Shown: positions 47,178-53,382 of the stretch, one piece after another
Layout of the letters: the number at the start of each line of letters is the position of its first letter
Numbering within the stretch: position 1 is the first letter of the stretch
NCBI GenBank assembly: GCA_035765775.1
Contig: DASTWV010000042.1
Location: 1 to 64,000 of the forward strand
DNA from: Actinomycetota bacterium
GTDB lineage: Bacteria > Actinomycetota > CADDZG01 > JAHWKV01 > JAOPZY01
Direction: 5' to 3'
DNA: 64,000 bases
Translations under genes and position numbers: made by a program
Notes under the pieces: model-generated
Seen by the model: the letters and a program-made list of their open reading frames with translations, nothing else
Databases searched by the model: none
Told to the model about the DNA's origin: nothing

Positions 47178-49799
47178 ATGGACCTCAACAAACTGACCCG
47201 ACGCTCGCAGGAGGCGCTCGCCGCCGCCCAGGCGCTGGCCACCCAACGCAACCACCAGATCATCGAGCCCGAGCACCTGCTCCACGCCCTGCTCTCCTCG
47301 CCCGAGGGCGTCGTCTTCGGCGTCGTGCAGCGCCTCGGGGCGGTGCCCACCACGCTCCGGGAGCGGGTGGATGCCCTGCTCGCCCGCATCCCCAAGGTGT
47401 ACGGCGGCGGCGGCGAGGCCCGCATCGGCCCGGCGCTGTCCAAGGTGCTGGACCGCGCCTTCACCGAGGCCGAGAAGCTGACCGACGAGTACGTCTCCAC
47501 CGAGCACCTGCTCCTGGGCCTGGTCGAGACCGCCGGGTCCACCCGGCTCGGCCCGGTGTTCGCCGAGTTCGACATCACCCGCGACCGCCTGCTGGCCGCC
47601 CTGGTGGAGATCCGGGGCACCCAGCGCGTGACCTCGCAGGACCCCGAGAGCACCTACCAGGCCCTCGAGCGCTTCGGCCGGGACCTGACCGACCTGGCCC
47701 GCAAGGGCAAGCTGGACCCGGTCATCGGCCGGGACGACGAGATCCGCCGGGTCATGCAGGTGCTGTCCCGGCGCACCAAGAACAACCCGGTGCTCATCGG
47801 CGAGCCGGGGGTGGGCAAGACCGCCATCGTCGAGGGCATCGCCCGGCGGATCGTGGACGGGGACATCCCCGAGTCGTTGCGGGACAAGCGGATCATGGCC
47901 CTGGACATCGGCTCGATGGTGGCCGGCTCCAAGTACCGGGGCGAGTTCGAGGAGCGGATGAAGGCGGTACTGAAGGAGATCGTCGACTCCCACGGCGAGG
48001 TCATCACGTTCGTGGACGAGTTGCACACCATCGTGGGTGCCGGCGGCGCCGAGGGCGCGGTGGACGCCGGCAACATGATCAAGCCCATGCTGGCCCGGGG
48101 CGAGCTGCGCATGATCGGCGCTACCACGCTCGATGAGTACCGCAAGCACATCGAGAAGGACCCCGCCCTGGAGCGCCGCTTCCAGCCCGTGATGGTGAAC
48201 CCGCCGTCGGTGGAGGACACCATCGCCATCCTGCGCGGCCTGAAGGAACGCTACGAGGTCCACCACGGCGTGCGCATCCAGGACGCCGCCCTGGTGGCGG
48301 CCGCCATACTCTCCGACCGCTACGTCACCGGGCGCTTCCTGCCCGACAAGGCCATCGACCTCATCGACGAGGCCGCCAGCCGCCTGCGCATCGAGATCGA
48401 CTCGATGCCGATGGAGATCGACGTGGTGGAGCGTCGGCGCAAGCAGCTCGAGATCGAACGCGCCGCGCTGCGCAAGGAGACCGACGCCCCGTCGAAGGAG
48501 CGGCTCGCCCGGCTGGAGGAGGAGCTGGCCCGCCTGACCGAGGAGTCCTCCGGGCTCAAGGCGCACTGGCAGCTGGAGAAGGATGCCATCGGCCGCATCC
48601 GGACCATCAAGGCGGACATGGACAGCGCCAAGGCGGCCGCCGAGCAGGCCGAGCGGGAGGGCGACCTCGGCAAGGCCGCCGAGTTGCGCTACGGGCGCCT
48701 GGTGGAGCTGGAGAAGGACCTCCAGGAGGCCAACGCCGCCCTGAACCAGCTCCAGGCAGGCAACAAGATGCTGAAGGAGGAGGTGGACGAGGAGGACATC
48801 GCTGAGGTGGTCGCCCGCTGGACCGGCATCCCGGTGTCCCGGCTGCTGGAGGGCGAGCTGCAGAAGCTGGTCCGCATGGAGGACGCCCTGCACACCCGGG
48901 TCATCGGCCAGGACCAGGCGGTGTCCGCGGTGGCGAACGCCATCCGGCGGTCCCGGGCGGGCCTGGCGGACCCCAACCGGCCCATCGGCTCCTTCCTGTT
49001 CCTCGGCCCGACGGGCGTCGGCAAGACCGAGCTCGCCCGGGCGCTGGCGGAGTTCCTCTTTGATGACGAGCGGGCGGTGATCCGCCTGGACATGAGCGAG
49101 TACATGGAGAAGCACACGGTGTCCCGGCTCTACGGCGCCCCGCCGGGCTACGTCGGCTACGACGAGGGCGGCCAGCTCACCGAGGCGGTGCGCCGCCGGC
49201 CCTACGCCGTGGTCCTGCTGGACGAGATCGAGAAGGCCCACCCCGACGTCTTCAACGTGCTCCTCCAGGTCATGGACGACGGCCGCATGACCGACGGCCA
49301 GGGGCGCACGGTGGATTTCCGCAACACCATCCTGATCATGACCTCGAACGTGGGGTCGGGTTGGATCCTGAGCCTGACCAACGAGGGCAGGGACGACGAG
49401 CACATGTCCGAGAAGGTGATGGAAGCCGTGCGGGAGACCTTCAAGCCCGAGTTCCTGAACCGGGTGGACGAGATCGTCGTGTTCCGGCGCCTCTCCGAGG
49501 ACCAGCTCGGGGCCATCGTCGACATCCAGCTCGGCTGGCTGGCCCGGCGCATGGCCCAGCGCCGGATCGGTCTCGAGGTGACGCCCCCGGCCCGGGCGTA
49601 CCTGGCGCACCGGGGGTACGACCCGGCCTTCGGCGCCCGGCCGCTGCGCCGCCTGATCGCCAAGGAGCTGGCCGACCAGATCTCGATGTCGCTGCTGCAG
49701 GGCGGCTACACCGAGGGGGACACCGTGGAGGTCGATCTCGGCCCCGACGGGACCCTGACCTTCCGCAGGCAGGAGGCCCCCGTCGGCGCCGCCCCCTGA
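47178..49799 (+). CDS. clpB: ATP-dependent disaggregase ClpB
   Basis: An 873-aa Hsp100 protein. It has the N-domain, AAA1 ([27 protein letters not shown]), the coiled middle domain (about 400-530) and AAA2 ([27 protein letters not shown]). It lacks the ClpP-binding loop, as expected. With DnaK-GrpE-DnaJ it dissolves aggregates. It follows hspR by 54 bp and may share the heat-shock operon. Confidence 0.97.
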
Positions 49800-50003
49800 G
49801 CGGCGCCGAACCGGGCTCGACCGCAACTGAAGCGATGGTCATGGGGTGCTCATGCGATGTTGGCATAGCCGCGGCAAAGCCATGCCCGCCAATCCGGAAC
49901 CGGCATCGGGGCAGGCCCGACGCCTTGCGGTGCCTCGCCGGGCGATGGGAAACTGGTGGGGCACAAGCTGCACCGAGACCATCGAAGAAAGGAGGTGATC
50001 GAC

Positions 50004-50174
50004 ATGCCGTCGCTCTGTTGAGCGGATGCTGGGGCGACCTGTAAGGTCCCGATTTCGGCTCCGACCAAGGAAGAGTTGATGCGGCGTGTTGTGGACCACC
50101 TGATCAACGTCCACAACGTTCGTCCCCCGACGAAGACCGTACTCAACTACCTGGAGACCAAGATCAAGTACTAA
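50004..50174 (+). CDS. Predicted selenoprotein, DUF1059-like (in-frame UGA = Sec)
   Basis: A 56-codon gene missed by ordinary gene finding. ATG 50004 is preceded by AAAGGAGGTGATC, complementary to the whole 16S 3' end. Codon 6 is TGA (50019-50021); the frame then continues 50 codons to TAA at 50172. Read with Sec (U) the start is MPSLCUADAGATCKV, and the rest includes TKEELMRRVVDHLINVHNV. This fits DUF1059, whose core is C-x-D-x-G-x-x-C followed by an EEL...H...H helix; U takes the place of the first conserved Cys. A hairpin (50032-50050) follows at the distance of bacterial SECIS elements. The family role is unknown; a thiol/selenol redox role is inferred. Confidence 0.8.
50032..50050 (+). 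promoter_or_regulatory. Candidate SECIS hairpin of the DUF1059-like gene
   Basis: GACC (50036-50039) pairs with GGTC (50045-50048) around loop TGTAA; GG/CC pairs outside extend it past a bulged C. The stem starts 10-14 nt after the UGA, the place where SelB binds bacterial SECIS RNA. The fold was made by eye. Confidence 0.5.
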
Positions 50175-50277: not shown

Positions 50278-52071
50278 TCAGGACCGCTGGGGGCCGCCCC
50301 GGGTGAGCAGGACCGCGGCCCCGGCACCCACCGCCAGGGCGAGCACCAGCGCCCCGGCCAGGAACCAGGGCGTGCTGGTGGAGGACGACTTCTTCGCCGG
50401 CCCGGCCGCCTTCGGCGATGCCGGGGGGCGCCTGCCGGGTGTCGACGGGCTCGGGCTGGGCGATGGCGGCGGGGGCGCCTTCAGCGTGACGGTGACGCCC
50501 TCCGACACCACCCGGGACACACCGTCGTCGGCCACCACCGCGGCCTGGTAGGCCCCCGGTGCCAACCCGGCACCCGCCGGGTCCCACGTCACCGACGCCG
50601 CTCCTCCCGTCACGGGCGCCGGAGTGGTGGAGCCGGTCCCGGTCACGCCTGGGCCGGTGTATTCGATGCTGACGTTGGCGGCATGGTTGAGGTTGAAGGA
50701 GAACGTCGCCGGGGTTCCCGTGGCCGCCGTGGCGCTGGCCGAGACCCCCGAGATGGTCACCGTCGGGGGGATGGCGCCGCCCGGCCCGGGCGCCGGGGCG
50801 ATGGTGAGCGAAGACCCGCCCGTGATGGTGACCGCGCCCGAGACCCCCGAGGGGCCCCCGCTCACCTGCACCGACCCCCCGGGCGCCACGGTCACCTGCT
50901 GCACCCCGGTGGCCAGCAGGATGCGGATGCTGCCCGGTTCCGGCACGGTCACCGGCTGCAGGCCGCCGTAGTAGTAGGCGAGGATCTGCTGGTAACTCTG
51001 CCCCTTGGCCGCCTTGCCCTCAGCCCCCCACTGCACCATGCCCACGCCGTGGCCCCAGCCCCGCCCGGTCATGACCACGGCGTCGGCCTGCTGGGTCAGC
51101 GTCATCCAGATGGAAGGAACGGTCTGGGGGAGATGCCCGCCCCCGGTGGCGGCACTGGGGTAGCGCTTGGGCGTGAGGCAGTCGGCCTGATTGTTCAGCG
51201 AGTTGCGGAACGTCGAGACCGGCAGGGTCTTGGACTGTCCCGGCCCCGAGATCGCGATGTTGGTGCCCTGCTGGCTGACGGTGGTGATCGCCCCGGTGCC
51301 CCACTGCCCGGCCAGATTCAGGGCCTGGGCGAGGTCGGTCAGCGGCATGCGGACGGTCCAGTTCGAGGTCGGCGAAGCGCCGTCGTCGTTCTCCACCACC
51401 GGCTGCAGGTAGGGCAGGGGAGGCCCGTTGAACACAGTGGCGTTGGAGTAGGTGTGGCCATTGGAGGTGGAGAAGTACAGGGCGTCGATGGGCTTGCCCT
51501 GGTACTCCAGGATCTGGCCGGCGGTGTCGTTGACCGCCTGCACCCAGCGGTCCCCGTACGGCCCGTTCTGGACCGACTCGCCCCGGTACACCTGGCAGGC
51601 GTCGGTGGAGCACAGGTCGTAGTGCAGGCCATCCACCGTGGACCCGTTGAGGTGCGAGATGGCGTAGGTGCGGGCGGCCACCACCTGCGCCTCGAGCGCG
51701 GCCAGGGGCCAGCTGGTGGGCACCTCGGCGATGCCCTTGAGGTAGTCGGCGAAGCTGAGCTGCGTGATGAGGTAGAGCCTGCCATTGGGCTCCCGGCCCA
51801 CCTCGAGGGTCCCCGGGAACGCCGCCACCACCGGCTGGGGTTGGTTGGGGGGGCAGAGGCCGGGCACCGAGGGGAAGATGGCATCGACCGTATCGGAAGC
51901 CCCCGGGCTGGCCGGGGTGAAGGTGATCGGCCCCACCGGGGCCTGGTCCCCGGCCCGGGGGGCGGCGGCGCTGGCGCCGCTCCGGGCGGCCGCCGGCGTG
52001 CGGAACCCGATCGGGGCGGCGGTGGCGGCGAACACCAGGAGGGCCAGCCCCCACCGGAGGCGGGGCTTCAT
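50278..52071 (-). CDS. SpoIID/LytB-domain exported protein with C-terminal anchor
   Basis: A 597-aa protein with a signal peptide (MKPRLRWGLALLVFAATAAP) and a SpoIID domain (about 80-370): LSFADYLKGIAEVPTSWPLAALEAQVVAARTYA, GEILEYQGKPIDALYFSTSNGHT-like text and GRGWGHGVGMVQWGA. SpoIID enzymes cut denuded peptidoglycan strands. Two Ig-like/Gly-rich parts follow, then a proline linker and one helix (TPWFLAGALVLALAVGAGAAVLL) before RGG. ATG 52071 gives the clean signal. It is divergent from ilvA. Confidence 0.88.
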   Translation of the reverse strand: MKPRLRWGLALLVFAATAAPIGFRTPAAARSGASAAAPRAGDQAPVGPITFTPASPGASDTVDAIFPSVPGLCPPNQPQPVVAAFPGTLEVGREPNGRLYLITQLSFADYLKGIAEVPTSWPLAALEAQVVAARTYAISHLNGSTVDGLHYDLCSTDACQVYRGESVQNGPYGDRWVQAVNDTAGQILEYQGKPIDALYFSTSNGHTYSNATVFNGPPLPYLQPVVENDDGASPTSNWTVRMPLTDLAQALNLAGQWGTGAITTVSQQGTNIAISGPGQSKTLPVSTFRNSLNNQADCLTPKRYPSAATGGGHLPQTVPSIWMTLTQQADAVVMTGRGWGHGVGMVQWGAEGKAAKGQSYQQILAYYYGGLQPVTVPEPGSIRILLATGVQQVTVAPGGSVQVSGGPSGVSGAVTITGGSSLTIAPAPGPGGAIPPTVTISGVSASATAATGTPATFSFNLNHAANVSIEYTGPGVTGTGSTTPAPVTGGAASVTWDPAGAGLAPGAYQAAVVADDGVSRVVSEGVTVTLKAPPPPSPSPSPSTPGRRPPASPKAAGPAKKSSSTSTPWFLAGALVLALAVGAGAAVLLTRGGPQRS

Positions 52072-52140
52072 GCGGGCTTCGCCCCGGTGACGGGCCCGGG
52101 TATCCCTCCGGGCTTGGCGCCGGGATGGGAGAATCCCGGG

Positions 52141-53382
52141 ATGCCATCGCACGCCCGCACCGACGAGTGGACCGGACTCATCTCCCTAGACGCCGTGCAC
52201 GAGGCGGCCGCCCGGCTGGCCGACATCTGCCTACCGACGCCGGTCTGGCCGTCACGGATCCTCTCGAGGATGGCTGGAGGCTCGACCCTGCTCAAATGCG
52301 AGAATCTCCAGCGAACCGGGTCCTTCAAGATACGAGGAGCCTACAACCGGATCGCCCGGCTTTCCGGCGAGCAGCGCGCCCGGGGTGTGGTGGCCGCCAG
52401 CGCCGGGAACCACGCCCAGGGCGTCGCCCTGGCGGCCGCGCTCCTGGGCGTGCGCTCCACGGTGTTCATGCCGGCCGGGGCGCCGCTGCCCAAGGTGGAG
52501 GCCACGAAGAAGTACGGGGCGGACGTGGTGCTGCACGGGGCGGTCTACGACGAATCCCATGAGCAAGCCCTCGCCTTCGCCGAGGAGCACGGCGCGGTCC
52601 TGGTGCATCCCTTCGACCACCCCGACGTGATCGCCGGGCAGGCCACCGTCGCCCTCGAGATCCTGGAGCAGACGCCGGATGTCCGCACGATCGTGGTACC
52701 GATCGGCGGCGGCGGGCTGATCTCCGGCATCGCCGCCGCGGCCAAGGCCCTGCGCCCGGACATCCGGATCGTGGGCGCCGAGCCGGCGGGCGCCGCCACC
52801 CTGCGCCGCTGCCTGGACGAGGGCCGGGTGGTCACCCTGCCCGAGGTCTCCACGATCGCCGACGGGCTGGCCGCCAAGCGGGGGGGGGACCTCACCTTCG
52901 AGTACGTGCGCCGCCTGGTGGACGACGTTGTGCTGGTCACCGAAGAGGAGATCGCCCAGGCCCTCCTGCTCATGACCGAGCGGGCGCGGCTGTTGTTGGA
53001 GCCGGCCGCGGCGGTCGGCGTGGCGGCGGCGATGACCCAGCGCTCGACGCTCACCTTCCCGGCGGTGGTGGTCGCCTCGGGGGGCAACATCGACCCGATG
53101 CTGCTGTTGCGGGTGATCCGCTTCGGCATGACCGCCGCCGGGCGCTACTTCGCCTTCCGCACCAAGCTGCACGACCGGCCGGGCGAGTTGGAGCGCCTGG
53201 CTGCCGCCGTCGCCGGGGTGGGGGTCAACGTGGTGGGCATCGAGCACCGGCGGGAGGGCATCCTGCACTCGGTCCTGGGCGATGTCGAGGTGACCATCCA
53301 GGTCGAGCTGCGCGGGCCCGAGCACGTGGAGCAGCTGACCGCCCGCCTCCACGAAGCCGGCTACGAGGTGGACCCGCTGTAG
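52141..53382 (+). CDS. ilvA: Threonine ammonia-lyase
   Basis: A 413-aa PLP enzyme forming 2-oxobutanoate and ammonia from threonine, for isoleucine synthesis or threonine breakdown. The PLP lysine is in TGSFKIRGAYN (about residue 61); ASAGNHAQGVALAA and VPIGGGGLISGIA bind cofactor phosphate. A C-terminal ACT domain (KLHDRPGELERLAAAVAGVGVNVVGIEH) is of the short, single-ACT form typical of the TdcB/IlvA type found in actinobacteria. ATG 52141. selW follows 31 bp downstream. Confidence 0.93.
   Translation: MPSHARTDEWTGLISLDAVHEAAARLADICLPTPVWPSRILSRMAGGSTLLKCENLQRTGSFKIRGAYNRIARLSGEQRARGVVAASAGNHAQGVALAAALLGVRSTVFMPAGAPLPKVEATKKYGADVVLHGAVYDESHEQALAFAEEHGAVLVHPFDHPDVIAGQATVALEILEQTPDVRTIVVPIGGGGLISGIAAAAKALRPDIRIVGAEPAGAATLRRCLDEGRVVTLPEVSTIADGLAAKRGGDLTFEYVRRLVDDVVLVTEEEIAQALLLMTERARLLLEPAAAVGVAAAMTQRSTLTFPAVVVASGGNIDPMLLLRVIRFGMTAAGRYFAFRTKLHDRPGELERLAAAVAGVGVNVVGIEHRREGILHSVLGDVEVTIQVELRGPEHVEQLTARLHEAGYEVDPL

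Follow-up and report, generated by a model that had tools for sequence, protein, structure and literature searches.

The May 2026 inventory of prokaryotic selenoproteins comprises 119 families and subfamilies (Table 1 of PMC13188914). It includes selenoproteins predicted by Cys/UGA alignment, as well as the FmdB-type UxxU, NF041115 and MbdU proteins, in which selenocysteine (Sec) is likely a metal ligand, as inferred from their names and motifs. The DUF1059 family (PF06348) is not among these 119 entries, and neither PF06348 nor DUF1059 is named in the consulted passages of the deep-Sep report, which describes nine new families (PMC12013277). To date, our search of the literature, with supplementary files and subscription journals outside its range, has returned no paper joining "DUF1059" and "selenoprotein". 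Additionally, comparison of 17 Sec forms with NCBIfam gave no family, the best match having an E-value of 0.096 to an unrelated family. An earlier note on this DNA knew of no description of DUF1059 as a selenoprotein family, which agrees with its absence from published lists (PMC13188914, Table 1), and the Sec-containing DUF1059 proteins (Sec-DUF1059) are best regarded as constituting a selenoprotein family that is new.

Compared with Cys-containing DUF1059 proteins, the protein that we describe in the window (the whole stretch of 64,000 nucleotides analysed) has the same length, the (C/U)-x-D-x-G-x(2,3)-C motif, the EEL helix and the H-x4-H motif, whereas a predicted UGA-encoded Sec takes the place of the first Cys. 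With the selenoproteins predicted by Cys/UGA alignment (PMC13188914), it shares a UGA on a Cys column, the existence of Cys homologues, the occurrence of UGA homologues in more than one genome and the presence of sel genes. It differs from the selenoproteins of that inventory in that its SECIS is a candidate only and in not being thioredoxin-like by sequence. Unlike the FmdB-type UxxU, NF041115 and MbdU proteins, DUF1059 has a U-x6-C pair and two His residues, not CxxC or CU motifs. The Sec-containing SelD of the same genome (L011) is an unrelated protein with the same use of UGA, which makes it an internal control for the decoding of Sec.

Sec-DUF1059 would add one more family to the known selenoproteome. 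Standard annotation is expected to miss such genes because they have about 56 codons and their UGA is the sixth or seventh of these. Since they are multi-copy in an actinobacterial lineage, they could represent a major use of selenium there.

A DUF1059 gene with an in-frame UGA

Direct reading of the window bore out the layout given in the earlier note, i.e., a ribosome site, an ATG, a TGA at codon 6, 50 sense codons between this TGA and a TAA, and the TAA itself (Table 1). Readthrough of this TGA yields MPSLCUADAGATCKVPISAPTKEELMRRVVDHLINVHNVRPPTKTVLNYLETKIKY. When C is substituted for U, residues 3-46 match Pfam PF06348 (DUF1059) with an E-value of 9.8e-10 and 39 bits, the gathering cut-off of this profile being 21.1 bits. 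The U corresponds to the first Cys of the DUF1059 C-x-D-x-G-x-x-C motif, so both the family membership and the location of U on the first-Cys column were assigned correctly from the outset. The C-x-D-x-G-x(2,3)-C and H-x4-H motifs are present in the window protein, with U for the first C, and their columns are invariant in our alignment A1.

Table 1. Features at and around the UGA-containing DUF1059 gene of the window.
Feature	Position	Strand	Evidence and remarks
clpB disaggregase gene	47178..49799	+	Just upstream; Pfam ClpB/AAA domains; TGA stop
Shine-Dalgarno AGGAGGTGAT	49990..49999	+	Read from sequence; 3' end 4 bases 5' of ATG 50004
Predicted Sec-containing DUF1059 protein gene	50004..50174	+	56 codons, UGA=Sec at codon 6, TAA 50172-50174; Pfam, orthologue with kept UGA, dN/dS
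TGA codon 6, probably read as selenocysteine	50019..50021	+	First conserved Cys column of DUF1059; TGA in 25 genes, Cys in about 20 others
Candidate bacterial SECIS hairpin	50028..50059	+	Apical GUA (or UGUAA) loop, whose G (50041) is 20 nt 3' of the UGA; -12.4 kcal/mol
Codon of second conserved Cys (C13), predicted partner of Sec	50040..50042	+	Invariant in alignment A1
Codon of conserved His32	50097..50099	+	Invariant in A1 and A2
Codon of conserved His37	50112..50114	+	Invariant in A1 and A2
SpoIID-domain protein gene	50278..52152	-	Convergent neighbour; Pfam

Recurrence of the UGA and the Sec machinery

A DNA scan of public genomes located an orthologue of the window gene in an actinobacterial MAG (JAOPZY010000160.1, isolate RYN_267; L028). 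This sequence is apparently the same as contig G007:C271, with which it agrees in length and, at the DUF1059 gene, in sequence. In the orthologue, VPSICUADAGATCKVPITAPTKDELMRKLVDHL..., which shows 84% identity (A1), both the TGA and the reading frame are kept. Just upstream of it, at about 2884-2931 of L028, lies a partial tandem duplicate, FLNYLESRIRY*, that matches the C-terminus of the orthologue.

The source genome (G000; 3.6 Mb, 62 contigs, 95.8% complete) contains a second DUF1059 gene on contig 50 (L016), VPEFRUVDAGANCNGHFKAATKEELMRTV..., in which this column is again TGA. In a third paralogue, on contig 43 (L019), MANQYACANAGAGACGFK..., the U column holds Cys. A divergent DUF1059 subfamily without Sec and with a CxC motif (MARIIRCECGYVARG...) was also observed at G000:C43:77335-77412 (L018) and at G007:C124:17262 (L047).

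We extended the search to 397 genomes of the phylum, using an alignment of 17 Sec forms as query (E <= 1e-6) and PF06348 within the order. It returned 46 DUF1059 matches, 24 of them with exactly one in-frame stop, which was TGA in every case and TAA or TAG in none. The class search added one further UGA gene, L059 in genome G012, bringing the set to 25 genes in 13 genomes. When translated, all 25 have U at the first-Cys column, where about 20 homologues have Cys, and the Sec forms aligned in A1 match Pfam DUF1059 in all 17 cases. Homologues with Cys at codon 6 and homologues with a conserved TGA there, either of which the earlier note had looked to for its reading, thus both exist, some of them within the source genome. 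The Sec forms include the MPSLCU, MPEFRU, MPQFKU, MPPEVGU and MISFRU subfamilies, together with AYEFRU/PEFRU forms in more distant families. Viral contigs and plasmids were also searched, and no DUF1059 homologues were found in them. Since the UGA and the frame are both kept in the orthologue, and 25 genes from 13 genomes have the UGA at this column, its presence is not due to chance.

Downstream of the UGA, the dN/dS ratio between the window gene and its G007 orthologue is 0.124, and it ranges from 0.03 to 0.37 across ten pairs of orthologues or paralogues, which indicates that the sequence beyond the UGA is translated and under purifying selection. These values bear on the possibility that the TGA is a true stop or a pseudogene lesion, with codons 1-5 specifying a dead peptide and the remainder being a decaying DUF1059 sequence. 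Such an interpretation would fit with a SECIS that has no statistical support and with the use of TGA as an ordinary stop in the source genome, as at the end of clpB. Nevertheless, the purifying selection on the frame after the TGA, the recurrence of TGA, never of TAA or TAG, in 25 genes of 13 genomes, the intact start and ribosome site, and the Sec machinery of these genomes make it very improbable. Translation could alternatively restart after the TGA, for instance at the TTG and ATG codons at residues 25-26, to give a shorter DUF1059 protein without Sec. We give this alternative next to no credence, since there is no start codon in the interval from the TGA to the conserved Cys, and a restart at residues 25-26 would drop both the hairpin region and the second Cys, which are among the most conserved residues.

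In the source genome, selA (510 bits) and selB adjoin on contig 44, the main selB match scoring 296 bits, or 327.5 bits with its in-frame neighbour. The selD gene (L011, 372 bits) has one in-frame TGA of its own, and two tRNA-Sec genes, each of about 80 bits, carry the anticodon tca (UCA). The selA, selB, selC and selD check proposed in the earlier note thus had a positive outcome, with selA, selB, a Sec-containing selD and tRNA-Sec (UCA) all in the genome. The two tRNA-Sec genes (G000:C55:3940-4029 and G000:C30:363-452; L020 and L021) differ from each other at three bases, all in the long variable arm, and each is located near an ABC-transporter gene pair; the Sec tRNA locus is apparently duplicated within this one genome. 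On a short contig, a 120-codon open frame (G000:C37:8-346; L002, L120) corresponds to the C-terminal quarter of SelA only (55.6 bits) and adjoins two ORFs that, judged by eye, are transposase-like. This frame may be a remnant, or it may belong to a second SelA-like gene that the contig end truncates.

An organism-wide reassignment of TGA to Trp, Gly or Cys would account for the tolerance of in-frame TGA in several genes. However, selA, selB and tRNA-Sec are present, and the in-frame TGAs seen are the Cys-aligned DUF1059 positions and the Sec site of selD. Moreover, TGA is an ordinary stop in the source genome, as in the clpB gene of the window, which it terminates. We therefore reject general reassignment as exceedingly unlikely.

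With regard to the other genomes, selA was found in 12 of the 13 that have UGA-containing DUF1059 genes. The exception, G393, has a UGA gene and no detected selA, and this genome is 78% complete; in G003, the selA match covers about 219 profile positions only, being a fragment located where a contig ends. Because selA is common in the class (20 of 24 genomes; 229 of 397 in the phylum), its co-occurrence with the UGA genes is modest evidence, supportive but not decisive.

On comparative-genomic grounds, the window gene very probably encodes a selenoprotein, codon 6 (UGA) specifying Sec. The organism's own SelA/SelB/SelD/tRNA-Sec system would perform this decoding, and the product would be a small DUF1059 selenoprotein, probably cytosolic. 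The reading of the TGA as Sec put forward in the earlier note is strongly supported by the sel genes, the UGA and Cys homologues, and the purifying selection after the UGA.

A tree of 42 DUF1059 proteins requires approximately six Sec/Cys changes (bootstrap range 4-6), compared with 13.8 for shuffled labels. This number of changes, obtained from 59 columns only, indicates either that the Sec and Cys forms swapped more than once or that they diverged after old duplications.

Candidate SECIS elements

SECIS elements were sought by single-sequence folding, codon-aware RNAalifold and synonymous-codon shuffles. A plausible hairpin is present in the region 50022-50065, where a SECIS fold had been suggested, and to this extent the suggestion holds; this hairpin (50028-50059) is not statistically distinguished from synonymous-codon shuffles, with P-values of 0.07-0.14 when a geometric filter is applied. 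Where its upper stem has a certain G-C pair, the G007 orthologue has A-U, through two synonymous changes. Across 24 Sec genes, the synonymous-shuffle hairpin score had a mean z of 0.10, with no family-wide excess, and codon-aware RNAalifold found no common structure among them. As a control, SelD in the same class had a mean z of -1.12 for the same score, i.e., its SECIS was detected collectively. The SECIS-like hairpin of SelD (loop GUC, +34) is found repeatedly in the class, whereas the DUF1059 hairpin is not. Given its P-values, the absence of a family-wide excess and the lack of a shared RNAalifold structure, the window hairpin is a candidate SECIS that is unproven, and lineage-specific variation is possible. 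With no obvious shared SECIS, this family offers a test case for the rules of SelB recognition in Actinomycetota.

Conserved residues, possible function and gene neighbourhoods

Residues U6, D8, G10, C13, H32 and H37 are kept in 17 of 17 Sec forms (A1), and two Cys homologues from nanoarchaea (A2) likewise conserve C/U6, G10, C13, H32 and H37, giving the family pattern U/C-x6,7-C-x18-H-x4-H. The AlphaFold2 model has a beta-beta-alpha-alpha arrangement at low confidence (pLDDT 68, from an alignment of four sequences). A Foldseek search with this model gave no significant PDB match, the top one being a 55-residue chain of an archaeal large ribosomal subunit (E-value 3.5). Solved structures retrieved by sequence search matched in helices only and were discarded as spurious.

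Cys or Sec, Cys, His and His constitute the ligand set of Cys2His2-type metal sites. Based on this correspondence, we propose that the protein may be a small metal-binding or redox-switch protein, a prediction in which our confidence is about even. The Sec and Cys, seven residues apart at the N-terminus, would lie in a beta-hairpin-like region, and the two His, five apart, in a helix; together they would most likely form a Cys2His2-like metal or redox site in which Sec, standing in for the first Cys, would be the more reactive nucleophile or ligand. Such a protein could be a small metal-binding protein whose site opens upon oxidation, or it could act through a Sec-Cys selenenylsulfide switch. 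More tentatively, DUF1059 may be a zinc-finger-like mini-protein with Sec as a Cys2His2-type ligand, expanded within each genome into several subfamilies of Sec and Cys paralogues, with as many as five or six genes, and acting as a selenium-tuned metal/redox stress switch. DUF1059 offers a small test protein for the gain of Sec over Cys beside a possible metal site, and one genome provides natural paralogues of both kinds to compare.

The gene neighbourhoods touch on the same question. Upstream of the G007 orthologue are clpB and groES, the clpB side being common to G000 and G007, and a long minus-strand ORF occupies the place of the SpoIID gene in L028/G007, as judged by position alone. Upstream of the second DUF1059 copy are msrA in G000 and msrB-msrA in G007. 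The clpB/groES genes and, for the second copy, the msrA/msrB genes point to a possible role under oxidative stress or protein damage; repair functions recur in the neighbourhoods, although not uniformly. The msr genes beside a paralogue in these two genomes would also suit a selenoprotein in which Sec serves redox catalysis (selenenylsulfide or peroxide-reducing) and not a metal site, as would the second Cys, always seven or eight residues from U, and the view that most bacterial selenoproteins are redox proteins (PMC13188914). Nevertheless, the two helix His are as invariant as the Cys, and a plain dithiol switch needs neither; moreover, the model (pLDDT 68) has no thioredoxin-like fold. This alternative, which concerns only the function and is compatible with the Sec reading, is a serious possibility that we rate somewhat below even.

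Other neighbours are specific to particular forms of Sec-DUF1059. An RtcB-like RNA ligase gene (rtcB) is located directly 3' of the MPQFKU subfamily (L042, L050, L055). In several families, Sec-DUF1059 is directly preceded by one or two genes for small proteins (MSLAGILALILILAFVFILCSYLLRVITILVHVSFTLGT...; about 80-105 aa) predicted to be membrane proteins, at loci L033, L034, L059, L075, L079 and L095, which include several MISFRU and more distant forms; a Pfam scan of one of these proteins gave no match. Finally, a conserved TPR-repeat protein (MPERFGSKLDL.../RKGSKIDLGARLVMT...) is encoded 3' of the MPEFRU subfamily in four genomes (e.g., L016:1720-3135 and L044:1780-3132).
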